Below are positions 14,324-43,321 of a DNA stretch of 64,000 nt, one piece after another; position 1 is the first letter of the stretch, and each line of letters starts with the position of its first letter. The DNA is from Chlorobium sp. (lineage in GTDB: Bacteria > Bacteroidota > Chlorobiia > Chlorobiales > Chlorobiaceae), in assembly GCA_005862225.1 (NCBI GenBank), contig SZXV01000010.1, positions 124,001 to 188,000 on the forward strand, given 5' to 3'. The notes under the pieces are model-generated. The model was given only the letters and a program-made list of their open reading frames with translations. It did not search any database and had not been told where the DNA came from. The position numbers and the translations under genes were made by a program.

Positions 14324-15493
14324 TCATTGCCCAGTATTCGATGCCGCAGGAACGTTCCTGACTGGAGTAATAACAGCGCCATCCTGCAATTTATCGACTC
14401 CAACCACCACAATGGTATCGCCCTGCTGCAATCCTGAATTCACGAGATAATTATTACCACTTTTTGCAAGCACTGAAATAACCTGTTTTTTGACCTTGTT
14501 ACCCTTCTTGAGGAGAAAAACAAAAACCTTGTCCTGCAACTCAACTGTCGATGCCTGTGGAACCAGCAAAACATCATGATAGACGGATTCAATCTCCACC
14601 TGGCCACTATTTCCGGCACGTAACACGCCCTGATGATTCGGAAAGAGCGCCCTTAACCTGACGGAGCCGGTTGACTGATCAAACTGACCACTTATTGTCG
14701 CCAGACGGCCTTTTTCACTAAACCTGCTGCCATCAGCCATAATCAGTGAAACCGGAGCGACACGCTGAAGCATTAGCTGCATGGATGCTCCTGCATATTG
14801 CTGCCTGAAAAGGATATAATCCAGTTCACTCATACTGAAACTGGCACACACCTCGCTGACATCACTCAGCAGTGTCAGCCATTGACTCTGATTTTTACTG
14901 ACAAGACTTCCAAGGCGCAACGGTATTTTTCCAATATAGCCACTGACCGGAGCCTTGATGACGGTATAACCAAGACTAACACGCGCGGAGTTTGCGCCAG
15001 CGGTCCCCTGCTCAACAGACGCGAGAGTCGCATTATAATTAGCCTGAGCTATTTTAAGCTGGATATCAGAAACAACGTTGTTCTGCACCAGCGGAACAAG
15101 CTTGTCCACATCAAGTTTAGCTACAGCTAACCTCGCCTCTGCCGCATGTTGAGCCGCCAATGCACTGTGATACTGCTCTCGATACATCCTGTCGTCAATT
15201 TTAAAAAGCGGCTGCCCTGCCTTGACAAAAGAGCCCTCTTCAACATAAATTTTCTGGAGTGTTCCATCAACCTGTGGACGAATTTCCACATTGACTTTTC
15301 CCTCAAGCAGAGCCGAATACTCTGAAGTAACCCTGGCATCTGAGCGAGTAACTGTCATCACCGATAAAACTGGCTGCTCCTTTTTTTGAGCATTTTTACT
15401 TCCCGCTCCAACGCCACAACCAGTGAAAAGCAACAGGAACAACATTCCGATAACAACCGGAATCCTGAAAAAAATATGTTTCAAATTTTGCAT
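14324..15493 (-). CDS. RND efflux periplasmic adaptor lipoprotein (AcrA-like MFP)
   Basis: A 389-residue membrane-fusion protein, first gene of the efflux operon. The signal peptide ends in a lipobox (L-L-F-T-G-C, about residues 21-26). The lipoyl half-motifs (V-E-I-R-P-Q-V-D-G and V-I-K-A-P-V-S-G-Y-I-G) flank an alpha-hairpin at about 105-165, followed by the beta-barrel domain. It bridges the inner-membrane pump and the outer-membrane channel. The pump gene begins 57 bp downstream. No regulator (TetR/MarR) is adjacent; the next gene upstream belongs to a sigma factor pair. Confidence 0.93.
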   Translation of the reverse strand: MQNLKHIFFRIPVVIGMLFLLLFTGCGVGAGSKNAQKKEQPVLSVMTVTRSDARVTSEYSALLEGKVNVEIRPQVDGTLQKIYVEEGSFVKAGQPLFKIDDRMYREQYHSALAAQHAAEARLAVAKLDVDKLVPLVQNNVVSDIQLKIAQANYNATLASVEQGTAGANSARVSLGYTVIKAPVSGYIGKIPLRLGSLVSKNQSQWLTLLSDVSEVCASFSMSELDYILFRQQYAGASMQLMLQRVAPVSLIMADGSRFSEKGRLATISGQFDQSTGSVRLRALFPNHQGVLRAGNSGQVEIESVYHDVLLVPQASTVELQDKVFVFLLKKGNKVKKQVISVLAKSGNNYLVNSGLQQGDTIVVVGVDKLQDGAVITPVRNVPAASNTGQ

Positions 15494-17204: not shown

Positions 17205-18527
17205 TTATGCCTCCTGAATCCTGTGACCTGATGCTGCAAGAAGTGCACTTCCAACATCTTCCAGCAGAGTTATTGCGCCACGATAACCAACCGTGCAACG
17301 GTTCAGTACCACCCTCTCTACCAAAGGAAATGAAAGCTCTAAAAACGGCACCCCCATCTCAAAAGCCACCTCTTTTTCAAGAGCACTGCCAAGCACCAGC
17401 TCAGCGCTGCTGGAACGCAGCCGATCAGTAATCTCACCGTGATCTTCGCTGAAAAACAGCTCAGTACCATAACCTTCCACAAAACTTGTCACGTATGAAT
17501 AAAGCGTCTCTCTTGCATGATCAGGCGGATTATCCGTCATAATTAACAGACGAGGAATCATACCGAGAGTTCCGGCTAAAAACTCACTGAAGCCAGCCAC
17601 CTGGGCGCTCTCTCCAACAAGAGCAAATTCACGCTGAAACCCTGAGCGATAATAAGTATCAGCAAGAGCTGCAAGATGATTTGTTAAACGATTCTCTTCG
17701 TCCTGAATAACTCTTTCAGCTCTTCTGGTGTCGAGATGAAGCCGTTCAGTGACAGCTTGCAGCATTCTTCCACTTGCACGACCTACAGGAAGAGCATCGA
17801 GCACAAGAGCCGGGGTTCCATAACGCTCTTCCAGAAGCTGAGCTGGAGTTTCACCCCAAACAGAAACAACAAGGTTCAGAACCGCCTCCGGAACCTGCTG
17901 CCACGCAGCAAGGCCCTGTCCATTGCCAAAAAGAAGATTTGGTTTAAGACCGACAGTTTCCAGCAAACGACCAATCTCCTCCAGATTTCCAAACCAGAAT
18001 GGATCCTGTTGAGGAACAATTCCCCAGATATTGACGATACTGTCCGATACCGGTTCTGCGACCTTCCCAAGTTTTGGTAATTGTTCAATCAGTGCCTTTA
18101 TGGTCAACTGATATCCTTGATGAACATCTCCCCGAAAACCGGGAGTATTGGCATAGATCACCGGGAAATCCTGTTCACGACCTTCTTTTGTCATGGCAGG
18201 GATATCGTCACCCACCATTTCAGTCGAGCACCCGGTTACAATGACATAGAGTTCTCCCTGAATAATTTTGACCGTGTTTTTGAGCTGTTCACGTAAACGG
18301 GATCCTCCACCGAAAACGATGTGCTTTTGACTGATATTACTCGATGAAACCGATGGGCCACCGAAAGTATCGTTGCCCGCATTCAAACGGGTAATGCCCA
18401 GATGATGCTGCATCCCACATCCCGCAGTGCTGTGTATAACTGGAACCGCCCCTTCAATTGCGCCGATAACCTGAAGTGCACCATGCAGGGCACAGGAATT
18501 GCGTGATCCCTCAATATGATGGGCCAT
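17205..18527 (-). CDS. nitrogenase-like catalytic subunit, NifK-type (three cluster cysteines)
   Basis: A 440-residue member of the nitrogenase component 1 / DPOR-COR superfamily. The three cysteines that hold the interface cluster in NifK align well: Cys12 (S-C-A-L-H-G), Cys37 (A-G-C-G-M-Q) and Cys100 (T-G-C-S-T-E-M-V-G-D-D). The intervening H-I-V-F-G-G-G and N-T-P-G-F-R-G motifs are also typical. It starts one base after the stop of the D-like gene, so the two are probably made in equal amounts and form a complex. It is not BchZ or BchB by pattern, and green sulfur bacteria keep bch genes elsewhere. It lacks the N-terminal extension of true NifK. Last gene of the operon. The reaction is unknown; reductive cleavage of an organosulfur compound is inferred from operon context. 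Confidence 0.85.
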   Translation of the reverse strand: MAHHIEGSRNSCALHGALQVIGAIEGAVPVIHSTAGCGMQHHLGITRLNAGNDTFGGPSVSSSNISQKHIVFGGGSRLREQLKNTVKIIQGELYVIVTGCSTEMVGDDIPAMTKEGREQDFPVIYANTPGFRGDVHQGYQLTIKALIEQLPKLGKVAEPVSDSIVNIWGIVPQQDPFWFGNLEEIGRLLETVGLKPNLLFGNGQGLAAWQQVPEAVLNLVVSVWGETPAQLLEERYGTPALVLDALPVGRASGRMLQAVTERLHLDTRRAERVIQDEENRLTNHLAALADTYYRSGFQREFALVGESAQVAGFSEFLAGTLGMIPRLLIMTDNPPDHARETLYSYVTSFVEGYGTELFFSEDHGEITDRLRSSSAELVLGSALEKEVAFEMGVPFLELSFPLVERVVLNRCTVGYRGAITLLEDVGSALLAASGHRIQEA

Positions 18528-18528
18528 G

Positions 18529-19944
18529 CTACTTTACCTCCATTTTGATATGCCAATTGGCACTGCGTCGAAGCCAGGCATTCTGATAGACTGAAGGTGA
18601 ACGGGCAATTGCTGACGCAAAGGAGCGGTTGCGCAATGCAGCGGCAAATCGTCGTGCTGCAAAGATTAATCCGTTGTATCCAAGAATCGGACTCTCCTCA
18701 AGTGAAACGACCGGAATACCGAGGCGTCCAATCTGACTGAGGTGCGCTGCGTCGCCAAGATAAAGATCCGGAGATAATCGTTTTATAATATTCACCTCCT
18801 CAAATGGCTGACCATCTGCAACATGTATCGGCAACGCTGGATGCATCAGGGCAAGTTCATGCAGCCGGTGCTTATACCGGTGGTCAATGTAGCGGAACGT
18901 TATACCAATAACTTCGCCTCCCAGTTCCTCAACAAGATCCAGCACACTGAACAGTGTTGCTGCTGAAAGACCAAGATAAACCCGTACTCCCTTGAGAGTA
19001 AAATTCCCCAGTGATTGTTTGACTTTTTTACACTCCTGTTCATGAAACGTTTGAGCGGCTTCTTCAAGACCAAGTTCCTTGCCTGCGGCTGCAAGCCAGC
19101 GTCCTGTGGCGCCAAGACCAATCGGCCGTGGTGCTTCAACATAGGGCACTCCATACTCGTCATGCAGGCAGATTCCTATATAATTACTGCTGTCATCATC
19201 AAGTGAGATGGATAGCCTGGCTCTCTGAGCCTGACGGAATGTTTTTGCTGAGGCTCCATCTGGAAGAGTGTTCAACTCAAGACCAAACACAGACAGAAGA
19301 CGTTCAGCCTCCCGTTGATCATCGTTGTGCCCGGCAACCGAAAGCAAATTGATCCTGTTCTCGTGTTGATGTTCATCACTTCGTTTTCCGCCAAGATACT
19401 TAAGCAATGCGTGCAGCGCTATATCATAACCGGTCACAGCATGGTGAGAGGCAAAACCAGTAACATAGAGCGGAATAATATCCACGTCAAGCGCTTCGTG
19501 CAACTCGTCAACAACAGACTGGATATCATCATTATTAATCGCCACAACAGGAGTAGCCACAATAAAGATCAATTCCGGCTTATAACGCTTATATGCCTCA
19601 GTGACGGCTTTGCGCAGCTTCAGGTCAGCCCCCATAATGGTATCTCTTTCGTCGAGATTGGTTACAATCCAGCACCCGGCAGCAACGGTCAAATGATAAA
19701 AAAGACCGGCAGCAGCACATCCCCGTGAACCATGGATGACGATGACACTCTCCCGGATACTTGCCAGAAGCCGAAGAGCATGAAGAAGATCATCATGGCT
19801 GCTTTGTGAAAAAGTACGAGTTCGCTTGACGGGCTCTTTTGTGGAAAATTCTCTCTCAAGAGAGTCCACCGTTCCCTGCAACGCATTCAAGGTGTCAAGC
19901 CGCTTCTCTCGTGTAAGGGAGGATTTGGCTTTCAAAAGAGACAT
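18529..19944 (-). CDS. nitrogenase-like catalytic subunit, NifD-type, lacking FeMo-co ligands
   Basis: A 471-residue superfamily member that aligns with NifD through H-G-S-R-G-C (Cys76, equal to NifD Cys88) and N-N-D-D-I (139-141), then the segment with N-Y-I (254-256) and E-Y-G-V-P-Y, and finally G-Y-N-G-L-I-F-A-A-R near 422-431. Two of the three P-cluster cysteines are missing: the first position is in F-S-Q-S-S-H and the third is A-T-P near 130-132. Counting back from N-Y-I, the residue at the FeMo-co ligand Cys275 is Asp249, and the His442 position is Leu421. Only one cysteine is therefore available for an interface cluster, complementing three in the partner. The gene lies 31 bp after the H-like gene. 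The active-site content is unknown. Confidence 0.85.
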   Translation of the reverse strand: MSLLKAKSSLTREKRLDTLNALQGTVDSLEREFSTKEPVKRTRTFSQSSHDDLLHALRLLASIRESVIVIHGSRGCAAAGLFYHLTVAAGCWIVTNLDERDTIMGADLKLRKAVTEAYKRYKPELIFIVATPVVAINNDDIQSVVDELHEALDVDIIPLYVTGFASHHAVTGYDIALHALLKYLGGKRSDEHQHENRINLLSVAGHNDDQREAERLLSVFGLELNTLPDGASAKTFRQAQRARLSISLDDDSSNYIGICLHDEYGVPYVEAPRPIGLGATGRWLAAAGKELGLEEAAQTFHEQECKKVKQSLGNFTLKGVRVYLGLSAATLFSVLDLVEELGGEVIGITFRYIDHRYKHRLHELALMHPALPIHVADGQPFEEVNIIKRLSPDLYLGDAAHLSQIGRLGIPVVSLEESPILGYNGLIFAARRFAAALRNRSFASAIARSPSVYQNAWLRRSANWHIKMEVK

Positions 19945-19975
19945 AGGCTAAAATCTATTATGTTAACATTTACGT

Positions 19976-20854
19976 TTAAATTGACGCCATATTATGAACA
20001 ACCCCGGACTCAACTTCAAATATTCTGTCGCCCCATGACCTTGCCCAGCGCTTTAATTCCGGAGCATTGAGAGGCTTTGGAATAACCGACTCCTCATTTT
20101 CATCAATATATCGAGCAAGATTGCGATAGACCTGAGCCTGCCCGGATTCAGGAAGCGCCTCAATGACCGTCTTGCCATAAAGTTCACTTTGTGCAACAGT
20201 GATGGATCTTGGCACATACCCCACGACGGTCGTCCCTGTTTGATCGGTAAAATCATCGATCAATGATTTGGCATAGGCCGCCTGAATACTGTTTGCTATT
20301 ACTCCTCCCAGTCGTGCGCCTCCCGATGGAGCGTATTTGTTTACGGCCTTGAAAAGATTGTTTGCTGCAAAAACCGCCATAAAATCCGATGACGTCACCA
20401 CAAAAACCCTGTCCGCAATACCATCCCGGATTGGAACCGCAAAACCCCCGCACACCACATCTCCCAAAACATCATAAAGCACAAAATCAGGCTTGTATTC
20501 TTCGAAGAGCTTCAATTCCTGCAAGAGTTCAACAGCCGCATTGATACCTCTTCCAGCACAACCAACTCCTGGAACAGGCCCCCCTGCTTCAATGCAAAGC
20601 ACACCACCAAAACCAACGGCGGAGACATCCTCGATCCTGACTTTACTCTGTTCACGCAGTGTGTCGAGTACGGTAGGCAGGTCATTTCCTCCACGCAGAA
20701 TCGTCGTTGAATCGCTTTTAGGATCGCATCCTATCTGAATAACCCTGTAACCTGCCTCGGCAAGCGCAGCACTGATATTGGAAGTCGTCGTGGATTTACC
20801 GATTCCCCCTTTGCCGTAAATCGCAACATGCTTGCCTTGTTTTTTTTCACTCAT
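19976..20854 (-). CDS. nitrogenase-like iron protein (NifH/BchX-type ATP-dependent reductase)
   Basis: A 292-residue homodimeric Fe protein that would pass electrons, driven by ATP, to the D/K-like complex. The P-loop G-K-G-G-I-G-K-S-T is at 14-22. The two [4Fe-4S] ligands are Cys99 (G-V-G-C-A-G-R-G) and Cys135 (D-V-V-C-G-G-F). Switch I (G-C-D-P-K-S-D-S-T) and the Arg102 that is ADP-ribosylated in NifH are present. The reading frame is open 45 codons further upstream, but the ATG at 20854 is preceded by AAGGAGT at ideal spacing and starts at the conserved family N-terminus. It is closer to NifH-like group IV and BchX proteins than to true NifH by eye; this needs a tree. Confidence 0.93.
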
Positions 20855-20885
20855 CTCAATACTCCTTTTTCTTGATTCTATATTG

Positions 20886-21686
20886 TCAGGCAATCCCCGC
20901 TTGACGCAGACCCGGCCAGGCTGATCCGCCGAGAGTGAACCCACCGCCCGAGATATCCAGCCGTGCACCTGAAATAAAAGATGCCTCATCAGAAAGAAGC
21001 CAGATGATGGGTTTGGCTATCTCTTCAACAAAGCCAGGACGACCTATCGGAATGGTTGAGGAGATCTCTTCAAGGATTTGCTGATCGGCCGCATAGACAG
21101 CAGTCATCTCTGTAAGGGTAAAACCGGGTCGCACAGACACTGCTCGTATTCCCTCTGAAGCTACTTCCTTCGCCAGGCCAACAGTAAAAGCATCAACCGC
21201 ACCTTTGGTGGCGGCATAAAAAGAGGCGCCCGGACGCCCTCCTATGGTTGAAGCCATCGACGAGATATTGATGATGACCCCACCCTGCCCCCCATGAACC
21301 GTAGACATCCGACGCACGGCCTCCTTTGTTGAAAGAATCAGGCCGACGACATTGATTTGAAACAGATGCTGCAGCCGGGCAGCATCAGCAGCATCAACAC
21401 GCGTGGGACCAGTACCCATACCAGCGCTGTTGACAAGCGCCGTAACCGTTCCAAGTTTTTCATCAACCTCCCTGTAGAGCCGCTCAATATCCTCTGGCCT
21501 TGCAATGTCTGCATATACCGCTATTGCTCGAACACCTCTCTCTTTCAATTTTTCAACAAGACGATTGGCCTCCTGTTCTCTGGTACGATAGTTGACAGCT
21601 ATCGAGTATCCTTTTTCCGCAGCGAGTCTGGCTGTTGCCGCACCAATCCCGCTGGCCCCTCCTGTAATGACCAATACTTTCGACAT
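20886..21686 (-). CDS. short-chain dehydrogenase/reductase (SDR)
   Basis: A 266-residue NAD(P)-dependent oxidoreductase of the classical SDR type. It shows T-G-G-A-S-G-I-G (about 8-15), N-S-A-G (about 88-91, usually N-N-A-G), the catalytic Ser (I-N-I-S-S-M, about 143) and Y-A-A-T-K (about 158-162), with P-G-F following. FabG-like, including R-P-G-F-T-L-T-E-M. The start chosen is the ATG at 21686, where [10 protein letters not shown] begins. It sits between a radical SAM gene and the Fe-protein gene, 31 bp before the latter, so it is part of the nitrogenase-like operon and may act on the same substrate or its carbonyl/alcohol product. Substrate unknown. Confidence 0.9.
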
Positions 21687-21724
21687 ATACTCTTTTCGTA
21701 TAAACTCCCTTTGAAAATGCCACA

Positions 21725-21761
21725 CAAGCCCCCTTATACAATAATTAAAAGAGGGGGCTTG
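21725..21761 (-). other. strong intercistronic hairpin inside the nitrogenase-like operon
   Basis: A 10-bp GC-rich stem (21725-21734 with 21752-21761, around AAGCCCCCT/AGGGGGCTT) lies 39 bp before the SDR start. No U-tract follows on the minus strand, so it is not a terminator. It may separate two mRNA segments, for example by protecting or processing the H/D/K part. Confidence 0.65.
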
Positions 21762-21783
21762 CCTTTTTCTTTGCTGCCAACAT

Positions 21784-21909
21784 GCCGCCCCTCCGGGGCT
21801 TGAATTCAAAATATGACGTTGCCACCCCCTTATTTCTTCAATGCCGTAAGCATGACATATTGGTAGAATGCAGCGTAACCCGTCGCCACCCTTCGGGGCT
21901 TGAAATCAA
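21784..21909. repeat. two REP-like palindromic repeats
   Basis: Two copies of a 25-26-bp unit, GCCNCCC(C)TNCGGGGCTTGAA followed by A/T-TCAA, at 21784-21809 and 21885-21909, in the same orientation 75 bp apart. Each contains a short CCCC/GGGG hairpin. They fill the 225-bp gap between the radical SAM and SDR genes and look like dispersed REP-type elements. Whether other copies exist in the genome cannot be seen here. Confidence 0.6.
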
Positions 21910-21911
21910 TG

Positions 21912-23105
21912 TCATGCCACCAGGCCCTTGAAAACCGGCAGCATTTCATCTTCAATCCGATAAATATCATGGATTATCGTTATTGGGGCTGCATAGCAAT
22001 CATAGATCTCCTCGTAGGTAAAACCGTACTTTCTGTAGATAGCCGCTATTTTCTTGTAAAGATCAAAATGCCAGGCTGGTTCTGGTGAACGATGTCCCTC
22101 AAAAGCAGAGCCCGGATTCGGATTCCAGCTTGTCGCAAAACAGATAACACCCTTGGATGCCAGATATTCAATACCTTCAAGTGTTGACTCCTTCGGTTCA
22201 AGGCCTGCCACGATGTTTGAACGCACCTTGCCCCGGCCAAAGACCTCCACTTCATACTCCAAAGCCTTGACCCAATGCTCCCAGCCACCACACTGCAGCT
22301 CCTTTCCGGGGCAGATCGCCTTAAACATATTTCTGTCCCAGACCTCAATATTGGTCGCAATGGTGCGATACCCGGCTTCCTTGTACTTGTCAATGATATT
22401 CAGGTCATGAGGAGCACCGACACAGGCCGTGCCGTTAAAATCATCCAGTCCGGTATGTTCCTTGATGGCATCTGCCACATCCAGGTAATACTCCACTTCA
22501 CGACGCTCAGCCACAAAACCGCCTGTTATGGTGAGATGACGCGCCCCATCCCGGTATGCCGCACCAACCGTTTCTCCGATCTGCTTTGGATATTTCCAGC
22601 CGATACCCTCTGCTTCGCCATAGGTATCTTTCGTCGCATTGATGTTGCAGAATTTGCAGTCCTGGCCTTTATCTTTCAGGGCACATTCGTTGCTGTAAGG
22701 AATAAGCAGCACTCCATCCTGAACATAGAGCGCCAGATTGGCCATGCTTGTTCCATCCGAAGTTTTCAGTTTGTAATAGTTTGGCCGCTCAAGAAATTCA
22801 ACCGGAAATATGATTTCTCCATGATGGGCCAGATAGTAGGTCCCCTTTTCATAGATAAATGAGTATGAAGAGCGGCGATCCCACTTGACGGTATAGACCA
22901 GACCGTGTGGAGAGCGGTAACCTGCCGGAAACTTGATTCCAACATGAGTCTCATGGTCTCCCTCGAAAAGACAGTGAACTTCCTCCTGAAAGCGTCCACC
23001 AAGGTCAAGGTGTTTAAAAATATGAGGATCAAAGTTGATGCCTTCAACCCCTGTTAATATTTTTAATTCCAGTTCCCGATACAATGTTTCTTTAAGATTA
23101 CTCAT
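21912..23105 (-). CDS. radical SAM protein with CX8CX2C cluster motif (paralogue 1)
   Basis: A 397-residue protein whose only cysteine cluster fitting a radical SAM site is Cys141-Cys150-Cys153 (C-A-L-K-D-K-G-Q-D-C-K-F-C), a CX8CX2C spacing in place of the canonical CX3CX2C. A glycine-rich T-I-T-G-G follows near residue 198, at the place of the SAM-binding GGE motif. The region N-I-E-V-W-D-R-N-M-F (about 249-258) is shared with the second radical SAM protein of this operon. The N-terminal 130 residues are a separate beta-rich domain. It could assemble or modify the cofactor of the nitrogenase-like enzyme, or act on the substrate. It is not NifB by motif. Position: between the ABC ATPase and SDR genes. 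Confidence 0.82.
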   Translation of the reverse strand: MSNLKETLYRELELKILTGVEGINFDPHIFKHLDLGGRFQEEVHCLFEGDHETHVGIKFPAGYRSPHGLVYTVKWDRRSSYSFIYEKGTYYLAHHGEIIFPVEFLERPNYYKLKTSDGTSMANLALYVQDGVLLIPYSNECALKDKGQDCKFCNINATKDTYGEAEGIGWKYPKQIGETVGAAYRDGARHLTITGGFVAERREVEYYLDVADAIKEHTGLDDFNGTACVGAPHDLNIIDKYKEAGYRTIATNIEVWDRNMFKAICPGKELQCGGWEHWVKALEYEVEVFGRGKVRSNIVAGLEPKESTLEGIEYLASKGVICFATSWNPNPGSAFEGHRSPEPAWHFDLYKKIAAIYRKYGFTYEEIYDCYAAPITIIHDIYRIEDEMLPVFKGLVA

Positions 23106-23158
23106 ACGTCTTTTCTCCCTGATTTTGAATTTATTGAGACTATTGAACTACTCTTTAA

Positions 23159-23935
23159 TTATATCGTATAGGTGAAATGAGGCTCGGTGTGCAGCATAAA
23201 CTCCTCAAGCACTTTTTCTTTCATTTCAGCAAACTCAACACTTGCCCGATCCCGTGGCCGTGCAAGTGGAACAGGAATAATTTTCTGTAATTTTCCTGGC
23301 CGTGCAGACATCACAACAATTTTATCCGAAAGATAAAGGGCCTCTTCAACATCATGAGTGACCATGATCATGGTTATATTTTCTTTCTTCCATATCCGCT
23401 CAAGCTCCTTGTGCATATACATTCTTGTTAAAGCATCAAGCGCACCAAGCGGCTCATCCAAAAGCAATATTTCAGGTTGATTGACAAGAGACCTTGCTAT
23501 TGCAGCTCGTTGTGACATTCCGCCGGACAATTGATATGGATAACTTTTTTCAAAGCCTTTCAATCCTACCAGTTCAATATGGTTGTTGACTATTTCCTTT
23601 TTCTCTGTGTCACTTTTACCGACAATGCCAAGCCCTATATTTTTTTCAACCGTCAGCCATGGAAAAAGGCGATGATCCTGAAACACAATTCCCCTGTCAA
23701 GACTTGGTCCGTTAAGTTTTCGCCCATCAAGAAGAATATCACCTTCATAGTCAGATTCTAACCCGACAATAAGTCGCAAAAGTGTTGTTTTTCCGCAACC
23801 GCTCAAACCAATAATGCTTATAAACTCTCCTGCCTTGACTGATAAGTTGATATTATCGAGAACATGAATTTCATTATTATTAACACGAAATTTTTTACTC
23901 ACATTCGTTACTGAAAGTGTTCCTGTACTTTTCAT
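23159..23935 (-). CDS. ABC transporter ATPase, nitrate/sulfonate/taurine type
   Basis: A 258-residue ATP-binding subunit of the SsuB/TauB/NrtD class, energising uptake of an oxyanion-like solute. It shows Walker A (G-L-S-G-C-G-K-T-T, about 43-51), the Q-loop (V-F-Q-D-H-R-L-F), signature L-S-G-G-M-S-Q-R, Walker B ([11 protein letters not shown]) and H-loop (V-T-H-D-V-E-E-A). It ends 53 bp before the radical SAM gene and begins 4 bp after the second permease, and partners the two permeases and the binding protein of this operon. The family imports sulfonates, sulfate esters, taurine, nitrate or thiamine precursors. The sulfur-linked leader favours a sulfur compound. Confidence 0.92.
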
Positions 23936-23939
23936 TGAT

Positions 23940-24737
23940 TTATCTTGATTGTTTCAATGTCAGTCTCCAGAAAGAGAAAAACATTTCCATTTTTTGCATA
24001 AAAAAATTCATTGTAAATCCAACTAATGCGATTGCAATAATACAGACAACAACCAGATCCATTCTGGAATATTCTCTGCACGCCCACATCATTTCACCAA
24101 TACCGCCTCCAGAGGTCATAAATATTTCAGCAGCAACAACCAGCATCCACGAAATACTCAAACTGAGTCGTAGTCCGGTCAGCGTTGAAGGAAAACTTGA
24201 CGGCAGAATAATTTTAAAAAAACGTTGAACTCTGTTGAACTTGAATACCTTTCCAACTTCGACATAATCGTTTCTGACATTTTTTACCCCTTCGAACGTA
24301 TTCAGAACAACAGGATAACAGGCTCCAATTGCGATAAAAAGCACACGGGACATTTCACCAAGACTGACCAGAACCAATAACGGAGCCCATGCGGGCAAGG
24401 GCACCTGCCGGATTGCATTAAAAATCGGAGTTATCAATTTTTCCAGAAACCTCGACATTCCGAGAGTTATTCCTATAACAAACCCGACTGTCGAACCAAG
24501 AAGAAAACCTTTCAATACCCTGATGACACTCATACCAAGATTATCAAGAAAACTTCCATCATTCAGGACTTCATGAAAGCCATTCACGACATCTCCAGGA
24601 GAGGGAAAAAAATCTTTTGATAGAATATTGAGCCTTGAACAGATCAGCCAGATAACAAAAATCGTTCCCGGAAGAAGAGTGCCTTCAAGCACTTTAATGG
24701 GCAAATATTTATTCCCCCTCACAGACAAAAAACTCAT
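23940..24737 (-). CDS. ABC transporter permease (SsuC-like) 2
   Basis: Inner-membrane permease of about 265 residues with six hydrophobic segments and the BPD_transp_1 EAA-type loop (the E-V-G-K-V-F-K-F-N region followed by I-L-P-S-S-F-P near residue 170). It is homologous to the first permease gene, so the transporter is a heterodimer. The start at 24737 (M-S-F-L-S-V-R-G) is preferred over an upstream ATG that would overlap the preceding gene by 53 bp. Two different permeases are less usual in this class, where a homodimer of one SsuC is normal. Confidence 0.88.
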
Positions 24738-24741
24738 GATT

Positions 24742-25524
24742 TTATTTTTTTGAGAGTGGACGATGCCAGCTAATAAGAGAAACTTCGAGAGCATTAAGTG
24801 TCAGAAACATCAGATATCCGATAGATCCAACGACTGCAATCCCCACAAAAACAATATCCATTTGAAACAACTGTCGCCCCCAGACAATAAGGTATCCGAC
24901 TCCCTCACCTGCCGCAACAAGTTCAGCTCCGACAACAAGCATCCACGACATGCCAAGTGCCAGTTTGATTCCTGTAAAAAGAGAAGGCAAGGCCGCAGGC
25001 AAAAGCACTTTATGAAGCAGCTTGGCTGAACTGAATTCAAAAGCACGGGCGACCTCAAGGTATGATCTGGGAACCCCGTGGATTCCTTCAAAGGTGTTGA
25101 TCAACATCGGGAAAAAAGCCCCAAATGCTATAAAAACAACTTTGAAGGTCTCTCCTATTCCAAACCAGAGCATCAACAGAGGAATCCAGCCGAAAAGCGG
25201 CACCTGACTCAAGGCGCTGAGCAACGGCGCTATAATACGTTCCGACCTTGGTGAAAGAGCCATCACCGTGCCAAAAATAAAACCAAGGGTGGCACCGAGA
25301 ACAAATCCAGTCAACACCCGATACATGCTGATCCGAAGATGCTCCAGCAATTCTCCTGTACTGATCAAGTCAAAAAAAGTAATCAGTACCTTGTGCGGAG
25401 CCACAACAATCTGTGATGGGAAAATTTCAAGCTTGCAGATTATTTCCAGGCCAATAACGAGCAGAACAGGAACGATAAACCCGATAAGAATTGTCTTGAC
25501 CTGTGTTTCTCCCTTAGTGTTCAT
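24742..25524 (-). CDS. ABC transporter permease (SsuC-like) 1
   Basis: A 260-residue inner-membrane permease with six hydrophobic segments and the family loop (E-V-A-R-A-F-E-F then V-L-L-P-A-A-L-P). The start at 25524 (M-N-T-K-G-E-T) overlaps the MFS gene by 11 bp, showing tight coupling. An upstream in-frame ATG would extend it deep into the MFS gene and is unlikely. Together with permease 2 it forms the membrane channel for the SsuABC-like importer. Confidence 0.88.
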   Translation of the reverse strand: MNTKGETQVKTILIGFIVPVLLVIGLEIICKLEIFPSQIVVAPHKVLITFFDLISTGELLEHLRISMYRVLTGFVLGATLGFIFGTVMALSPRSERIIAPLLSALSQVPLFGWIPLLMLWFGIGETFKVVFIAFGAFFPMLINTFEGIHGVPRSYLEVARAFEFSSAKLLHKVLLPAALPSLFTGIKLALGMSWMLVVGAELVAAGEGVGYLIVWGRQLFQMDIVFVGIAVVGSIGYLMFLTLNALEVSLISWHRPLSKK

Positions 25525-26737
25525 TGCTATACTCCTTGTTGAATGGCTGAACCAATAACGCGTCATCCACAACAGCGGCAGGGGCATTGTGACGCAGATA
25601 AAGTCTGACCGAGAGTGCCAGATAAAGAGGTATAAAAATCAGAAACACAGACCTTGCTCCGAAGAGCTCTCCTGCAAATCCTCCAACGACCGGTCCAATA
25701 ATTGAACCGGCTATAGTAAACATGGCAAACATACCCGCAGTCCTTCCTTTATCAACATTGGCGTATGCGATACGAGTCACATTAACCAGATTGAACATGC
25801 CAAGTCCGATTCCGACAAATACAGTGCCGATAACAAGGAAGAGTGGATGCCATAAACTGGAGAGAAATATCAGACCTGTAACGACAAAGGCAATACTTGT
25901 CAGATAAAAGCGACGTTCCCCGAGCCTGTCAAGCAGACGCCAGAGGGTAAACAGTGTTGCAATAAAAACCAGACCCTCTAATGACACAAACAATGACGCG
26001 ACCTGTGCCGAGATATGAAAAACACGAATCGCAAGAACAATGATAAAAGCATTGAAACATGAGAAGGTAGCCAGCGCCAACGCTTCTGCACTGGATGCCT
26101 CAAGGATATTGTGATCATGAAAAAGCTCCTTGACATGCCTCCATCTTTCAACAAGCGTACTTGCTCCGGAAGCTTTGGCATTAGGGAAAATGGCAAGCGC
26201 ACCAACGATCAGAAGAAGGACAGATACACTGACAGCATAAAAAGTGGCATTAAACCCCCAGTATTTACTCATGAACGCTCCGGACAATGGGCCAAGAAAT
26301 ACCATCCCGAATGAATGTGATCCCCTCTGCCAACCAGCCTTGTCACTGCCAATTGTCTTCACAAACTCCAGAAAAACGCTGCTCATCGGAATAAACCTGA
26401 ATGCAGAAAAAAAACCGACGATCGCAACGAAGTAGCAAAGAGTCTGTGATGAGTTCGCAAAGGGAAAAAGGAGATACAGAAGTGCCGTTGCCACAGCTCC
26501 AAAAATAAACACTTTCCTTGGGCCAACATGATCAACCAGAAAACCAATCGGCAACACCGTCAAAAGCAGACCAATTCCCTGCGCACCGCCGATCAATCCA
26601 ATCTGGGAGCTTGTCGCTCCAAGCTGTACGGCATAAAGTGTTATTGCAATCTGTGCAATCCCCATCCCCATTCCACCAAGAACAGAGAGAAACATAAACT
26701 GCACAAGCAGCTTGTTTTGACTTATTGACTCTGTCAT
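25514..26737 (-). CDS. major facilitator superfamily transporter
   Basis: A 407-residue MFS protein with about twelve hydrophobic segments and the loop-2 signature G-F-L-V-D-H-V-G-P-R-K (about 61-71), which resembles the canonical G-x-x-x-D-R-x-G-R-R/K. It starts 3 bp before the end of the FMN-barrel gene region and overlaps the next permease. Its place inside the operon suggests it moves a product out (for example the desulfurised residue) or a second substrate in. Specificity cannot be read from sequence. Confidence 0.88.
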   Translation of the reverse strand: MTESISQNKLLVQFMFLSVLGGMGMGIAQIAITLYAVQLGATSSQIGLIGGAQGIGLLLTVLPIGFLVDHVGPRKVFIFGAVATALLYLLFPFANSSQTLCYFVAIVGFFSAFRFIPMSSVFLEFVKTIGSDKAGWQRGSHSFGMVFLGPLSGAFMSKYWGFNATFYAVSVSVLLLIVGALAIFPNAKASGASTLVERWRHVKELFHDHNILEASSAEALALATFSCFNAFIIVLAIRVFHISAQVASLFVSLEGLVFIATLFTLWRLLDRLGERRFYLTSIAFVVTGLIFLSSLWHPLFLVIGTVFVGIGLGMFNLVNVTRIAYANVDKGRTAGMFAMFTIAGSIIGPVVGGFAGELFGARSVFLIFIPLYLALSVRLYLRHNAPAAVVDDALLVQPFNKEYSNEH

Positions 26738-26739
26738 GA

Positions 26740-27204
26740 CTATTGCCTCAATAAATCCAGATGGCTGTGAAACAAGCCTCTCTCTTCCTTTGCAAGAGAG
26801 CTTCGGTAGGCAGGAGATTCGTTTCGAATCTCTTCAGGCGTAATGACCCAGACACCCGCAATATCAGCCTCGGGGCCTCTTCTTTCCCGAGCCCGTTCAA
26901 GCATCTGCCTGAAAATGGCACCAGTAATCAAGTATTTGTAGGGATAACCCTTTATTTGATAACTGATAAGGCCCTTTGTAATATTAATGGCAACTTTTTT
27001 GTCGAACCAGATACTCCTGACCAGATTTTTATTACTGATCGAACTCTCGACCCCTTCCGCAAAAACAATTGTTTCATCATCAAGAGTGGTCAACGAGCCC
27101 TTGAAAACAACGTGAGGCACGCCATCACCATCAATGGTTGCGACCACTTTAACACTCCCCGTATCCTTAAGCAGACCAAGCAGCTCTTCCGGTAGTTTAC
27201 TCAT
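26740..27204 (-). CDS. pyridoxamine 5'-phosphate oxidase-like FMN-binding split-barrel protein
   Basis: A 154-residue flavin-type split-barrel protein. The N-terminal half has the pattern V-A-T-I-D-G-D-G-V-P-H-V-V (about 20-32), typical of PNPOx-like domains, followed by strand V-A-I-N-I-T-K and Y-P-Y-K-Y-L-I-T-G-A. The PLP-synthesis residues of true PdxH are not apparent. Such proteins often bind FMN, F420 or heme and reduce small organics. It has only one methionine after the start and no cysteine. It lies 17 bp after the second radical SAM gene. Role in the pathway unknown; a flavin-dependent step on the imported compound is plausible. Confidence 0.8.
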   Translation of the reverse strand: MSKLPEELLGLLKDTGSVKVVATIDGDGVPHVVFKGSLTTLDDETIVFAEGVESSISNKNLVRSIWFDKKVAINITKGLISYQIKGYPYKYLITGAIFRQMLERARERRGPEADIAGVWVITPEEIRNESPAYRSSLAKEERGLFHSHLDLLRQ

Positions 27205-27221
27205 CAGCGTTCCTCTCTTTA

Positions 27222-28475
27222 TTAGTTTAAGCGTTCCAGATCACTGTCGCCATGATTGCCGCAGTGTTTGAAATCATCGTTATCAGATGCAAGACCATAG
27301 CTTTTGCGAATCTCAACCAGTCCTTTAATCAATCGTACATAGTATTCGAGCGGTGGCTGCTCTTGCCCAGCCAACCCGGTGCTTTTCCAGGGCGTCCAGA
27401 CAAGACTCAGATAGATCACGCCATTTTTTGCGAAATACTCGCAAGCCTCAAAGTTAGAATCAAGCGCCTGCTCAATGCTTGTGAACCCATGGGGCTTCGC
27501 AAATTCGACACCTGCCACGAAATTGGTATAGACATTGCCTTTGCCAAATATTTCAACCGCATCAAGAGCACTCTTGATCCAGTAATCGCGGCCAAACCAC
27601 TTCTCCTTGCCACTGCAGATCCACTTAAAAAGATCCTTATCCCACACCTCAATATCCGGGCAGTAAGAAGAAAGACCCGTTTCATCATGAAGCCTTTTAA
27701 CTTGCTGCTTTGTATATGCAGGAGCAATTAACTGGCTGGGAAATCTTCTTGTTTTGAAGTTTCTTCCGATCGCCTGAAGCACCTCGATGTATCGTTCCAC
27801 CTCTTTATCGAATGGCACTTCGCCGGAATAATCCGTTCCTGCGGTCAAATTAATCTGGGAATATCGACCAGGCTCCTTCAGTGCTTCATGAACCGTCTCA
27901 TAAATATCTTCGGGATGAATGACCTTCTCATAGTTGTCACCAGCCGCCTGTTTCTGCTGTTTCAAATCGGTAAAAAATGCGCAGAATTTGCATTGATCCC
28001 TTGTGTCCCAGTAATGGCAGTATCGGTATGGAATAATGTCAAGGCGCTGAGGGCGAGACCAGGCAATTGATTCCATTGGAACACCGCGACTTGTCAACTT
28101 CCCATAAAAATCCGGTCTTGGTGAAAAATCAACCTCGTCAATCACCTGGCCTTTATCAAGTACGTAAAATTTGCCATCAACATGATCAATGGTGTACGGA
28201 TCAGAAAATTGGTTTTTCACCGGAGAAGCCAGCACGCTTGTGCCATCACGAAGAAGCAGTGGGCCGGGAAAAGGACGTTCCTGTTTTGCGCCTCCTGAAA
28301 ATGCTGTCTGTGCCGGACCTCGATAGTAAGGAGCATAGGTGGCTTCTGTCGTCGCATCAGTAAACGCTATCCCCCGTCTTTGCAAATCAAGTTTCAGAAT
28401 GACCGACTTTGGAACATCAGCATATTTTTCACTGAGGGCGGCAACACCAGGATTATTATTAATTGTCATTTTCAT
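27222..28475 (-). CDS. radical SAM protein with CX8CX2C cluster motif (paralogue 2)
   Basis: A 417-residue paralogue of the 397-residue radical SAM protein of the same operon. The cluster cysteines are Cys153-Cys162-Cys165 (C-H-Y-W-D-T-R-D-Q-C-K-F-C), again CX8CX2C. The shared block I-E-V-W-D-K-D-L-F-K-W-I-C-S-G-K-E-K and the later V-E-I-F-G-K-G-N-V show common ancestry. Having two such enzymes in one operon with a nitrogenase-like trio suggests two maturation steps or a heteromeric enzyme. It begins 69 bp after the binding-protein gene, with a hairpin in the gap. I do not know a characterised member with this cysteine spacing. Confidence 0.82.
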   Translation of the reverse strand: MKMTINNNPGVAALSEKYADVPKSVILKLDLQRRGIAFTDATTEATYAPYYRGPAQTAFSGGAKQERPFPGPLLLRDGTSVLASPVKNQFSDPYTIDHVDGKFYVLDKGQVIDEVDFSPRPDFYGKLTSRGVPMESIAWSRPQRLDIIPYRYCHYWDTRDQCKFCAFFTDLKQQKQAAGDNYEKVIHPEDIYETVHEALKEPGRYSQINLTAGTDYSGEVPFDKEVERYIEVLQAIGRNFKTRRFPSQLIAPAYTKQQVKRLHDETGLSSYCPDIEVWDKDLFKWICSGKEKWFGRDYWIKSALDAVEIFGKGNVYTNFVAGVEFAKPHGFTSIEQALDSNFEACEYFAKNGVIYLSLVWTPWKSTGLAGQEQPPLEYYVRLIKGLVEIRKSYGLASDNDDFKHCGNHGDSDLERLN

Positions 28476-28497
28476 TCTCTGTTTGATAGTTTATAGC

Positions 28498-28530
28498 CAG
28501 GAACCCACTTCGTCAGATAGTGGATTCCTG
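28498..28530 (-). other. intercistronic hairpin after the binding-protein gene
   Basis: An 11-bp stem with one mismatch (28498-28509 with 28519-28530; CAGGAA...TTCCTG and CCACT...AGTGG) fills the short gap between the binding-protein and radical SAM genes. There is no U-tract on the minus strand. This is the usual position of a stabilising hairpin that raises expression of a periplasmic binding protein above the rest of the operon. Confidence 0.65.
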
Positions 28531-28544
28531 ACAAACGAGTTATT

Positions 28545-29582
28545 TCAGTTCCAGAAATTTTCAAGCTTCAGCTCTTTTAATGCTGCATCCAAATAACTTC
28601 TGTCGATCCATGTGTTGACGTCAAACGTATTTCTTATCAGTCCCTTTTCTTTTGCGAAGACAATGCCGCCTGCATAATGATTTACATAGTCTTTATCAAA
28701 CAGAACATCATTAACATCCTTCAGGGTACGACCTTCGATTTCTTCAAGTGCTACAGCACGAGGCGTGCCTCCTTTGACAGCGATGTCCAGATATTCATTC
28801 CGATTTTTCTCATCAGATGCCCATTTAGCCGCCTCAACATACACTTTGACGATGCGCCTTGTTATATCAGGATATTCTTTTGCAAACTTTTCTGTCACAT
28901 AGAATCCACCTGTATTGCGCCAGTCACGCGGGCTCTGTTTTGTTGAATAAATAATTTTTGCATTACCCTGACTGCGAAGCAGCAATAGATTTGTCCAGGA
29001 AACAGATGCATCAATATTTTTTGTTTTCAATGCTGCATCAAGATCTGCAATACCGAGATTGTAAATTTTCAGATCACTCTCTTTCAAATTATTTGCCTCA
29101 AGAATGCGGGATAATGTCAGATGCGCATTTGTTCCCTTGAAAAGACCAACCCTCTTGCCTTTCAGATCTTTTATCGAGGTTATTTTCGAATCGTTTGGCA
29201 CGCCAACATAGACATTGGTATACTTGGAACCTCCTGCGATGAACTTTGTTTTCAGTCCGCCAGCTCTGCCAACAATTGCAGGAAGATCACCGATGTAAGC
29301 AAAATCAATTGCATGGTTTGCAAGCGATTCATTGGTTGCGGGCCCCGCACCTTTGAAAAAAGCCCAGTCAAATTTTATTCCGTCATTTTTAAACTCCTCT
29401 TCGAGAAGACCTTTGGCATGCACAATACCGATGATACCGGCGCCATACGGTTTTCCATAACCAGCAGAATATGCTGACCCGATACGAACAATATTTGGTT
29501 TGTTTTGAGCCGCCTGCGATGAAGTCCCGCCAAAAACAATGACAGTAATCAGGGCGACAATGATTGCGAATGTATGTTTCAT
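28545..29582 (-). CDS. periplasmic substrate-binding protein, SsuA/TauA/NMT1-like, free of Cys and internal Met
   Basis: A 345-residue periplasmic binding protein for the SsuABC-like importer. The signal peptide (about 1-25) ends at S-S-Q-A-A. The mature part has the NMT1/SsuA-type order: I-V-H-A-K-G-L-L-E-E-E-F, then I-D-F-A-Y-I-G-D-L-P-A-I, L-K-G-K-R-V-G-L-F-K-G-T, and D-A-S-V-S-W. I read no cysteine and no methionine after the initiator in the whole protein, a sulfur-sparing composition known from sulfur-starvation proteins. A GGAGAG ribosome site precedes the ATG. It follows the porin gene by 33 bp. Confidence 0.92.
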   Translation of the reverse strand: MKHTFAIIVALITVIVFGGTSSQAAQNKPNIVRIGSAYSAGYGKPYGAGIIGIVHAKGLLEEEFKNDGIKFDWAFFKGAGPATNESLANHAIDFAYIGDLPAIVGRAGGLKTKFIAGGSKYTNVYVGVPNDSKITSIKDLKGKRVGLFKGTNAHLTLSRILEANNLKESDLKIYNLGIADLDAALKTKNIDASVSWTNLLLLRSQGNAKIIYSTKQSPRDWRNTGGFYVTEKFAKEYPDITRRIVKVYVEAAKWASDEKNRNEYLDIAVKGGTPRAVALEEIEGRTLKDVNDVLFDKDYVNHYAGGIVFAKEKGLIRNTFDVNTWIDRSYLDAALKELKLENFWN

Positions 29583-29615
29583 GATGATACTCTCCAGAGA
29601 AATGAAATTGATTGA

Positions 29616-30935
29616 TTAAAAGGTGTACTGAAGCTGAGCAAGAAACTCATTGTTGGCAACCTGGTTGCTCTCCTCAGTTATGATGTTGTAATTGATCTGC
29701 AGCTTGGTGGTCTGGGCAAAAAACCAGTTAAGTCCGATGGTGGTGATATCTTTCCGGTTGCCATTGACGCTCGTATCCGGATCCCAGCGATCAAACCTCA
29801 CGAAAGGCTGAAAAGTGGTTGGATACCAGTCATCATAGCGATCCTGGGCTTTATAACCACTGACGAATTGTTCACCCTGGTTGTAAAAAACGGTAACCGT
29901 ATGCCCACTCTTTTTGATCGTCCCATCCTCTCCTCTTGCATACTCAATGGTGAAGCCAACAGGAGTATTGACATAAGAGAGATCAAAACCGCTCCTGTTT
30001 TTTTCCACATTACCCAGGGAGCCACTCTTGCCAGAGTAATAAGAGGCTCCAAACGATAAGCCGCGAAAGACTGACGAATAGTCAACAGGAGCATTGAGCA
30101 CAATCCTGCCCGAAATATCTTTATGTTTATTGTCGTCGGAAAGCGTGGAATAGCCATACGCGTCAGAACCTCTGCCGTTAAGAATGCCTACTGAGTATTC
30201 GATGGCAGGAACGCGATAGCGAAATCCGGGGTCAAATTGTGGAAATAAATCTCCTTTAATGACAATTCCGAGATCACGCGCATCAAGATCAATCCCTGTG
30301 CCAGCTCTTGCAGATTGTGCAAGTTTGATCGTCGGTTTTTTATCTTCTCCGGCAAGAGCTTCAAGACCAAAAGGTTTTTTCTGCTTTCCAGCAGTGATAC
30401 TTAAAAGCGGATCTTCAGGATTCAGAGAAGGCAGAATAAAGGCCGTGATATAGGCATCAAGAGGACTTACCCTGAAATCCGTGGTGCCATCTGCATTTGC
30501 TCCACTTGGAGATGCAAGACTGAACAGATAGTTGACATTACGTCCCTGTTCGTAATCTCGCTTGAGACTTCCCTGAAAATTGAGCACAAGCGCATTCAGG
30601 TCAAAACCATTCCTGGTCGCATTGTGCTGTGTCGAGTATCTGAGTTGGGCGATGCCTGTAAAAATAAGAGAACGCTGCGTGCGCGCTGTATTGTTTTCAA
30701 GCGTCCTCTGCCACAACTCCTGTAATGTTGCAACCTCGCCCCTGACGCCCTCGAGTTCCTCTCTGGTAACCGGCGTCTCTGCCTTTACCGGTTCATCGAC
30801 CGCAACAACTTCAGCATTACCCGGACGAGATGCAGCGACCTTCGTATCAACTGTACTCTTGTCAGCAGCTTGCAGATTGGCATTACCAATCAAAAAGCTT
30901 CCGATAAGAAATATTCCAATTTTAATTTTACTCAT
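29616..30935 (-). CDS. outer-membrane porin (phosphate-selective porin O/P-like), free of Cys and internal Met
   Basis: A 439-residue outer-membrane beta-barrel protein, first structural gene of the operon. The signal peptide is about 1-23 (ending L-Q-A-A-D). A short coiled-coil segment follows (E-E-L-E-G-V-R-G-E-V-A-T-L-Q-E-L-W, about 58-74), then alternating beta strands and a C-terminal Phe (L-A-Q-L-Q-Y-T-F), the normal barrel insertion signal. From the ATG at 30935 there is no cysteine and no further methionine. An ATG 13 codons upstream lies close to the terminator hairpin and is less likely. It would let the substrate through the outer membrane. Confidence 0.88.
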   Translation of the reverse strand: MSKIKIGIFLIGSFLIGNANLQAADKSTVDTKVAASRPGNAEVVAVDEPVKAETPVTREELEGVRGEVATLQELWQRTLENNTARTQRSLIFTGIAQLRYSTQHNATRNGFDLNALVLNFQGSLKRDYEQGRNVNYLFSLASPSGANADGTTDFRVSPLDAYITAFILPSLNPEDPLLSITAGKQKKPFGLEALAGEDKKPTIKLAQSARAGTGIDLDARDLGIVIKGDLFPQFDPGFRYRVPAIEYSVGILNGRGSDAYGYSTLSDDNKHKDISGRIVLNAPVDYSSVFRGLSFGASYYSGKSGSLGNVEKNRSGFDLSYVNTPVGFTIEYARGEDGTIKKSGHTVTVFYNQGEQFVSGYKAQDRYDDWYPTTFQPFVRFDRWDPDTSVNGNRKDITTIGLNWFFAQTTKLQINYNIITEESNQVANNEFLAQLQYTF

Positions 30936-30957
30936 GATGATGTGATTCAAATTATTT

Positions 30958-30996
30958 AAAAAAAAAGCCGACACTTTGACATTAAGAATCGGCTTT
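30958..30996 (-). terminator. intrinsic terminator between leader ORF and first operon gene (attenuator)
   Basis: On the minus strand an 8-bp stem (AAAGCCGA with TCGGCTTT; 30989-30996 and 30964-30971) with a 17-nt loop is followed by a run of nine T (the stem's last three included) at 30966-30958. It lies 28 nt after the leader stop codon and 22 nt before the porin start, so transcription must pass it to enter the operon. This is the layout of a transcription attenuator. A further AU hairpin (31004-31023, 8-bp stem) lies just upstream. Confidence 0.85.
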
Positions 30997-31024
30997 CGTA
31001 TAAACTTTTTTCTATAAAAAAGTA

Positions 31025-31108
31025 TTATTCGATAGCAATAAATTTAATGCTCAGATATTGTTGTAACCAACAACAACAGCAAAAAAATAATACAGGAGTT
31101 ATTTTCAT
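31025..31108 (-). CDS. 27-residue leader peptide with four consecutive cysteines
   Basis: A 28-codon ORF including TAA, starting at the ATG at 31108 and reading M-K-I-T-P-V-L-F-F, then Cys-Cys-Cys-Cys (TGC TGT TGT TGT, 31081-31070), then W-L-Q-Q-Y-L-S-I-K-F, ending in A-I-E. It lies about 85 nt downstream of the predicted transcription start and directly before an intrinsic terminator. This is the arrangement of ribosome-mediated attenuation, with stalling at Cys codons when charged tRNA-Cys is scarce. The Cys codons overlap a possible hairpin (31058-31063 with 31068-31073 or 31071-31076). There is no clear Shine-Dalgarno site. The ORF is read directly; the regulation is inferred. Confidence 0.82.
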   Translation of the reverse strand: MKITPVLFFCCCCWLQQYLSIKFIAIE

Positions 31109-31179
31109 AACATTGATTGAATTAAAATATTGTTCTTTATTTCTTGTCATCAAGATCAGCAATAAATAAAAACTTTCAA

Positions 31180-31197
31180 ATCCCGTTTAAACGGGAT
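31180..31197. promoter_or_regulatory. 18-bp perfect palindrome at the predicted transcription start
   Basis: ATCCCGTTTAAACGGGAT is a perfect inverted repeat located 3 bp downstream of the -10 box, covering the predicted start site on the minus strand. This is a typical place for a repressor operator. It would also form a hairpin at the 5' end of the mRNA. The regulator is unknown. Confidence 0.7.
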
Positions 31198-31199
31198 AT

Positions 31200-31227
31200 T
31201 GTATACCATAAACGAGTTATTTTTCAA
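31200..31227 (-). promoter_or_regulatory. sigma-70-type promoter of the nitrogenase-like operon
   Basis: On the minus strand TTGAAA (31227-31222), a 16-bp spacer, then TATACA (31205-31200) followed by AT. The nonamer TATGGTATA occurs twice, at 31210-31202 (overlapping the -10) and 31244-31236 (just upstream of the -35), 34 bp apart, and may be an activator or repressor site. The 330 bp further upstream to the divergent DUF4293 gene hold nothing I can name. Confidence 0.65.
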
Positions 31228-42932: not shown

Positions 42933-43035
42933 GAGAACTCCGGAGTCAAATATGGAACAAGTTGTAACAATCTTCTGAAGCTGTTCGATACGCTTGCCCG
43001 GCTCTCTTCCCGAAGCCAATGGGCAACAATTTTTC

Positions 43036-43290: not shown

Positions 43291-43292
43291 GA

Positions 43293-43321
43293 AGTGTAAC
43301 GATTTTTCCCAAACCTTTCAA
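43293..43321 (-). promoter_or_regulatory. promoter in front of the cobalamin riboswitch
   Basis: TTGAAA (43321-43316), a 17-bp spacer and TACACT (43298-43293) on the minus strand put the start about 10 nt before the aptamer. It begins immediately after the terminator of the tail-collar gene, so the riboswitch and nrdJ form their own unit. Confidence 0.6.

Follow-up and report, generated by a model that had tools for sequence, protein, structure and literature searches.

A probable isethionate reductase-type operon preceded by a poly-cysteine leader in a Chlorobium genome

Introduction

The closest described counterpart of the system reported here is IsrBHDK, the isethionate reductase (Isr) of Rhodobacter capsulatus, which together with SsuCAB supplies sulfur from isethionate (Morimoto 2024, PMC11423573). 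Knock-outs and heterologous expression established that isrBHDK and ssuCAB are required for growth on isethionate and jointly sufficient for it in R. sphaeroides; one radical S-adenosylmethionine (SAM) gene suffices in R. capsulatus, islAB can substitute for isrDK, and genes for 'major membrane protein I' and a second transporter lie in the same 26-kb R. capsulatus locus (PMC11423573). IsrD retains a single P-cluster cysteine, C74 (NifD C88), the other two being replaced (by Arg and by Pro or Ser), IsrK has Cys12, Cys37 and Cys99, IsrH has Cys99 and Cys135 with a P-loop, and the ligands of the iron-molybdenum cofactor (FeMoco) are missing (PMC11423573). Isr was reported as a clade of its own near, or sister to, methylthio-alkane reductase (Mar; PMC11423573), where MarBHDK has six P-cluster cysteines, C270 and R428-H429, [Fe8S9C] and a NifB-type MarB (PMC12552129; PDB 9fmg, 9d9u). 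Here we describe a probable Isr-type operon in a 64,000-nucleotide stretch of a Chlorobium sp. genome (assembly GCA_005862225.1, contig SZXV01000010.1, positions 124,001 to 188,000; hereafter the window). With a probability that we put at roughly three in four, it is a cysteine-starvation operon for oxygen-free gain of sulfur from organosulfonates by an Isr-type nitrogenase-like enzyme.

Results

An H-D-K trio with the ligand pattern of isethionate reductase

The NifH-, NifD- and NifK-like proteins (H, D and K) close a run of 13 minus-strand genes that begins with a porin gene and spans positions 17205–30935 (Table 1). K matched MarK best (266 bits, runner-up 100) and D matched MarD (148 bits, runner-up 74), to which the predicted D structure (pLDDT 78) was also nearest. 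In trees of D and K that covered Mar, Nif, NifEN and Bch proteins, the family formed the sister clade of Mar, apart from the other three, with support of 0.98–1.0 for this position next to MarDK in the K tree. The order within the family differed between the D and K trees (L038 and L040 against L025 and L036), which suggests recombination between the two genes.

The only P-cluster cysteine of D, C76, is the equivalent of NifD C88 and is invariant in 26 D homologues. In all members Pro stands at NifD C154 and the NifD C62 column is occupied by Arg; the latter is not diagnostic, since Mar-type proteins have Arg there too because their Cys sits a few residues further on, and what discriminates the family from Mar is the lack of Cys anywhere in the NifD C62 stretch. 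Cys12, Cys37 and Cys100 of K (window numbering) are invariant in 27/27 homologues, and because Cys12 and Cys37 are the counterparts of NifK C70 and C95 we rejected the idea that K had lost a P-cluster cysteine. D and K thus contribute four such cysteines in total, compared with six in Mar. In H, Cys99 and Cys135 are invariant and the P-loop is present, as in IsrH. FeMoco ligands are absent from D, the window protein having Asp in the NifD C275 column, where the residue differs between members of the family, and Glu in the H442 column, and the positions of Mar C270, R428 and H429 are occupied by Asp, Asp and Ala. The trio neither reaches the curated equivalog scores of Nif, Vnf or Anf nitrogenase nor has their FeMoco ligands, and it lies outside the Bch clade and under the Bch equivalog cut-offs of dark-operative protochlorophyllide oxidoreductase (DPOR) and chlorophyllide oxidoreductase (COR). 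Apart from true nif genes, the relatives that a search of plasmids yielded, in Treponema and Chlorohelix (35–36%), were all of Mar type.

The trio shares with Isr a single cluster Cys in D and three such residues in K, the absence of FeMoco ligands and a clade adjoining Mar, and it probably clusters together with the R. capsulatus enzyme. Mar is the closest solved fold and the closest relative in sequence, but the window D lacks every cofactor ligand and retains a single P-cluster Cys. With DPOR (BchLNB) the trio would probably share a [4Fe-4S] cluster whose four ligands are split 3+1 and direct reduction of substrate; it differs in its separate clade, in drawing three ligands from K and one from D, in its importer genes and in that no pigment role is indicated.

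Gene order, uptake genes and radical SAM enzymes

A preliminary description of the window had listed the same gene types in the same order on one strand, and had correctly called the gaps mostly short: neighbours overlap or are 1–69 bp apart, with ~225 bp between the genes for radical SAM enzyme 2 (rSAM2) and the short-chain dehydrogenase (SDR) as the sole exception. It had counted 12 genes, where there are 13, and had extended the run from 17205, which is indeed the end of K, to 31227, which belongs to a sigma-70-like site beyond the last gene end at 30935. The genome-neighbourhood comparison that it had proposed bears out the grouping, because H-D-K are contiguous in 26/26 homologous loci and the flanking gene types recur, so that the layout is not due to chance.

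Table 1. Features of the operon and its upstream region (window coordinates)
Feature	Position	Strand	Evidence or remark
Sigma-70-like promoter, TTGAAA-18-TACAAT	31198..31227	-	10/12 matches; consensus match only
Perfect palindrome ATCCCGTTTAAACGGGAT, just past -10; possible operator/repressor site	31180..31197	.	sequence
Leader peptide open reading frame (ORF) MKITPVLFFCCCCWLQQYLSIKFIAIE, four consecutive Cys codons	31025..31108	-	same design in related islands
Intrinsic terminator GAAAGCCGATTCTTAATGTCAAAGTGTCGGCTTTTTTTTT, immediately ahead of porin	30957..30997	-	covariance model R1, folding
Porin (Porin_O_P), outer membrane	29616..30935	-	orthologues 46-97% in 12/13 related genomes
SsuA-family periplasmic sulfonate-binding protein	28545..29582	-	TIGR01728 169.9 bits, above cut-off 163.5
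Radical SAM enzyme 1 (rSAM1), NF045502 family	27222..28475	-	217 bits, cut-off 125
Small PNPOx-like flavin mononucleotide (FMN) split-barrel protein	26740..27204	-	PF01243 22.5 bits, under cut-off
Major facilitator superfamily (MFS) transporter	25514..26737	-	PF07690 138.8 bits
SsuC-type ATP-binding cassette (ABC) permease 1	24742..25587	-	PRK11365 171 bits, under cut-off 347
SsuC-type ABC permease 2	23940..24794	-	shares permease 1's protein cluster; orthologues 60-84% in L027, L030, L038, L041
SsuB/SaoA-type ABC ATPase	23159..23935	-	top match NF040729 262 bits, under cut-off 360
rSAM2, proposed IsrB counterpart	21912..23105	-	NF045502 478 bits; CX8CX2C and invariant CPGK Cys265
SDR	20886..21686	-	lies between rSAM2 and H
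H: NifH-like ATP-dependent reductase, IsrH type	19976..20854	-	TIGR01287 383.5 bits, under cut-off 394; Cys99, Cys135
D: NifD-like subunit, IsrD type	18529..19944	-	single cluster Cys76; without FeMoco or Mar ligands
K: NifK-like subunit, IsrK type	17205..18527	-	Cys12, Cys37, Cys100

The locus includes an SsuABC-type sulfonate importer; as in Isr, such an importer and a radical SAM gene accompany H-D-K in a phototroph. It differs from Isr in that the same run of genes also has the porin, SDR, MFS and FMN protein genes and a second radical SAM enzyme. Both rSAM1 and rSAM2 belong to NCBIfam NF045502 (scores in Table 1), and Cys265 is invariant in 45/45 radical SAM proteins, within CPGK generally and CSGK in the window rSAM1. 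No NifB-type partner was found among the radical SAM genes, which match NF045502 only; the folds nearest to the rSAM2 model (pLDDT 87) are lipoyl synthase and HydE, at a moderate TM-score of ~0.45. Against plasmids the top rSAM2 matches were MSMEG_0568-family proteins at ~25%, and sequence comparison of rSAM2 with the PDB gave no match. In locus L043 rSAM2 stands directly upstream of H (order B-H-D-K), and we propose rSAM2 as the IsrB counterpart.

Four Chlorobiaceae islands (L021, L022, L023, L039) carry at least five, and up to six, tandem rSAM2 paralogues for one H-D-K, some arrays being cut by the locus edge; such arrays are a further difference from Isr. Within multi-copy loci, 21/23 rSAM2 copies have their nearest relative in a different genome, which indicates that the types are mostly maintained and hence fits poorly with a simple role as a single activase, although dosage is still conceivable. 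The pairing of rSAM1 with the FMN protein recurs in seven loci (L020, L021, L034, L036, L038, L039, L044), and in three of them the pair is followed by genes for a BadF/BcrA ATPase and HGD-D (L020:12069-18021, L021:13448-20235, L039:13102-19670), with a nitroreductase as well in the units of L021 and L039. These units represent a second type of ATP-driven reductase associated with a radical SAM enzyme, and some of them are under the same Cys leader.

A poly-cysteine leader and terminator ahead of the first gene

The porin gene is preceded by a poly-cysteine leader and terminator (written MKITPVLFFCCCCW...), that is, a short ORF with consecutive Cys codons and then a terminator upstream of the operon, the arrangement of a Cys leader-peptide attenuator. 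The same design was found as 19 distinct leaders in related islands and not at all in 509 kb of reversed-sequence control; eight of the 19 aligned leaders, located through the terminator motif, have just two consecutive Cys codons. Across leaders the first Cys codon lies 112–123 nt from the T-run. The terminator, with its conserved GCCGATTCTT arm at fixed spacing, occurs in Chlorobiaceae organosulfur islands; covariance model R1 detected the window copy as the only one in the whole genome (E 3.6e-14) and up to five copies in relatives, ahead of island genes. In the related islands, leaders stand before porin, SDR-H-D-K, H, rSAM2, rSAM1 and arylsulfotransferase genes. Folding predicted the terminator as the default state, and no Rfam family reached its gathering score in the leader. 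Together, leader and terminator strongly suggest cysteine-dependent attenuation and tie the operon to cysteine starvation. Polycysteine leader ORFs are known in mycobacteria (Canestrari 2020, cited in PMC9031893), where, as far as that citing article describes them, a short upstream ORF with consecutive Cys codons likewise controls a downstream operon; relative to that account, the Chlorobiaceae leader adds the intrinsic terminator with its fixed-spacing arm. The text of the Isr paper has no poly-Cys attenuator (PMC11423573).

The palindrome ATCCCGTTTAAACGGGAT has a single occurrence in the window, against 0.03 expected when ≤3 mismatches are allowed, and is also present in L080 and L081 ahead of the orthologous porin gene. 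Separately, the Cys attenuator twice precedes a homologue (63–65%) of the resistance-nodulation-division (RND) fusion protein encoded at 14324–15493 of the window (L099 and L101, in genomes G004 and G015).

Distribution and genome setting

A scan of a genome collection found K homologues at 26 loci, most of them from Chlorobiaceae, together with two Geobacter-labelled, one Spartobacteria and one Rhodospirillales locus; Chlorobiota are not among the hosts in PMC11423573. The island is accessory, being carried by 8/37 genomes of the window's genus. Sampling at class and phylum level around the Rhodospirillales metagenome-assembled genome (MAG) revealed no second alphaproteobacterial member, and a search for the Rhodobacter-group 16S motif gave no match. 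Among Geobacterales, 5/141 genomes were positive at ≥55% identity, and the ligand test set the five D proteins of Isr type apart from those of Mar type and other kinds. Within Chlorobiaceae, H is 86–92% and D 53–72% identical. Neighbouring genes in relatives encode arylsulfotransferase, flavin reductase, nitroreductase, BadF/HGD-D reductase and NMT1-type binding proteins, a set that fits broad organosulfur use. In the Spartobacteria locus and one Geobacter-labelled locus (L042:11323-14906, L025:5274-7531), H-D-K is followed by a gene of the purine nucleoside phosphorylase (PNP)/methylthioadenosine (MTA) phosphorylase family and a purine permease gene, and in L042 also by a SAM synthetase gene, a hint of heavy SAM turnover.

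The 2.5-Mb genome, in 13 contigs, has lake-derived Chlorobiaceae MAGs as its closest relatives. Of its ten Oxidored_nitro genes, four that share a contig were assigned to nifDKEN and four to the chlorophyll pathway (bch), both by position and score; the remaining two are this D/K pair. Two genes of the PAPS (3'-phosphoadenosine 5'-phosphosulfate) reductase family next to a NIR_SIR gene on contig C12, and a second NIR_SIR pair on C3 that is DsrAB-like in appearance, are candidate sinks for sulfite. Photoferrotrophic Chlorobi relatives assimilate sulfate.

Discussion

Gene content, ligand pattern, clade position, the leader with its terminator and recurrence in relatives are the observations that lead us to organosulfonate use under cysteine starvation. 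A sulfonate, either isethionate or another, would enter through the porin, be captured by the SsuA-type protein and be imported by the two permeases and their ATPase, whereupon H-D-K with rSAM2 would catalyse an ATP- and radical-driven C-S cleavage; the sulfite released could be reduced to sulfide by the genome's sulfite-reducing enzymes and pass into cysteine. The likely roles of the SDR, rSAM1, FMN protein and MFS transporter are to prepare additional substrates or to process the carbon product, and the terminator would stop transcription unless the four-Cys leader peptide were translated slowly. The preliminary description had already proposed a dedicated pathway of uptake and ATP-driven reduction, had guessed at a sulfur compound and had named placement of the trio inside the BchXYZ or MarHDK clades as a refuting result. 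Both proposals gain support from the Isr precedent, from the SsuABC-type genes and from the poly-Cys attenuator, and by the D and K trees and the missing Mar ligands the trio belongs to neither clade. Its further contentions, that no known relative is encoded with an importer and radical SAM genes and that the system is undescribed, do not hold, as IsrBHDK with SsuCAB was published in 2024 and matches the core (PMC11423573).

Several points weigh against this assignment. The top Swiss-Prot match of IsrB is BciD (PMC11423573), and joint clustering with R. capsulatus Isr is inferred from signature and clade position. In the window the SDR gene separates rSAM2 from H; a competing antiterminator is predicted only in rSAM1-type leaders (L021, L039) and not in the window leader; and nucleoside phosphorylase and purine permease genes replace SsuABC in L025 and L042. 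Members of the family also differ in the D active site, where the residue at the Mar C270 position is D, N, C or S, so their substrates may not be the same.

A division of labour, with H-D-K as the common reductase and the radical SAM paralogues each specific for a substrate, cleaving its C-S bond or activating it, so that many sulfonates or other organosulfur compounds could be used, strikes us as possible, at rather less than even odds. It would account for the tandem rSAM2 arrays and their cross-genome relationships, for the greater conservation of H than of D in Chlorobiaceae, and for rSAM1-type enzymes beside BadF/HGD-D in three loci; however, tandem copies could reflect dosage or maturation factors, for some copies closely related genomes are almost tied as source of the nearest relative, and a single radical SAM gene is enough in R. 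capsulatus. In its full form, a modular oxygen-free desulfonation machine in which one ATP-driven nitrogenase-like reductase, up to six tandem, substrate-specific radical SAM types and the poly-Cys attenuators that switch them all on allow lake green sulfur bacteria to mine many organosulfonates, the proposal is more doubtful still. If true, it would be, to our knowledge, the first relative of nitrogenase whose radical-enzyme partners are exchangeable.

A thioether or methylthio substrate, as with methylthio-alkane reductase, is improbable: Mar is the closest solved relative, and PNP/MTA-phosphorylase-family genes follow H-D-K in L025 and L042, the latter also with a SAM synthetase gene, but the NifB-type partner, the Mar C270, R428 and H429 residues and two of the three D P-cluster cysteines are absent, the importer is of SsuABC type and arylsulfotransferase genes lie nearby in relatives. 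Synthesis or repair of a tetrapyrrole or other cofactor, as by DPOR, COR or CfbCD, would suit the DPOR-like cluster economy, the lack of a large cofactor and the phototrophic host, yet it is very unlikely given the tree position outside Bch, the accessory nature of the island, the uptake genes and the cysteine-responsive leader. Least probable of all is handling of an organometal or toxic compound, suggested by SaoA/SaoP-like transporter scores, with SaoA the top but sub-cut-off match of the ATPase, and by neighbouring RND and MFS pumps, since the SsuA match is above cut-off, the leader encodes cysteines and H-D-K is Isr-type.

Relative to Isr as described, three features of the operon and its relatives look new: the occurrence of Isr-type genes in Chlorobiota, Geobacterales, Verrucomicrobiota and one alphaproteobacterium; up to six tandem radical SAM paralogues, mostly of distinct types, per H-D-K; and the poly-Cys leader with terminator, together with the enlarged gene set. 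A young and little-studied branch of the nitrogenase superfamily thereby gains green sulfur bacteria and three further lineages, with natural variation that bears on a question left open in the Isr paper, whether the radical SAM protein cleaves the C-S bond or merely activates H-D-K. The leader may serve as a regulatory tag for genes of organosulfur scavenging in cysteine starvation, including enzymes of unknown role, and in lakes some anoxic phototrophs may use organic sulfur when sulfide is scarce.

Additional observations

Geobacterales genomes (G883:C50, G825:C155, G843:C43, G865:C1 and others; loci L129–L143) hold as many as six NifK-like genes of group IV, which frequently cluster on a single contig and are of Mar-type (R-H) or a third ligand pattern, a large unstudied nitrogenase-like group. 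Elsewhere in the window are a chlorophyll synthase gene, a type IIG restriction-modification gene (35277–38063, 1239 bits) and a cobalamin riboswitch (43019–43295) ahead of a 1171-codon ORF at 39504–43019.

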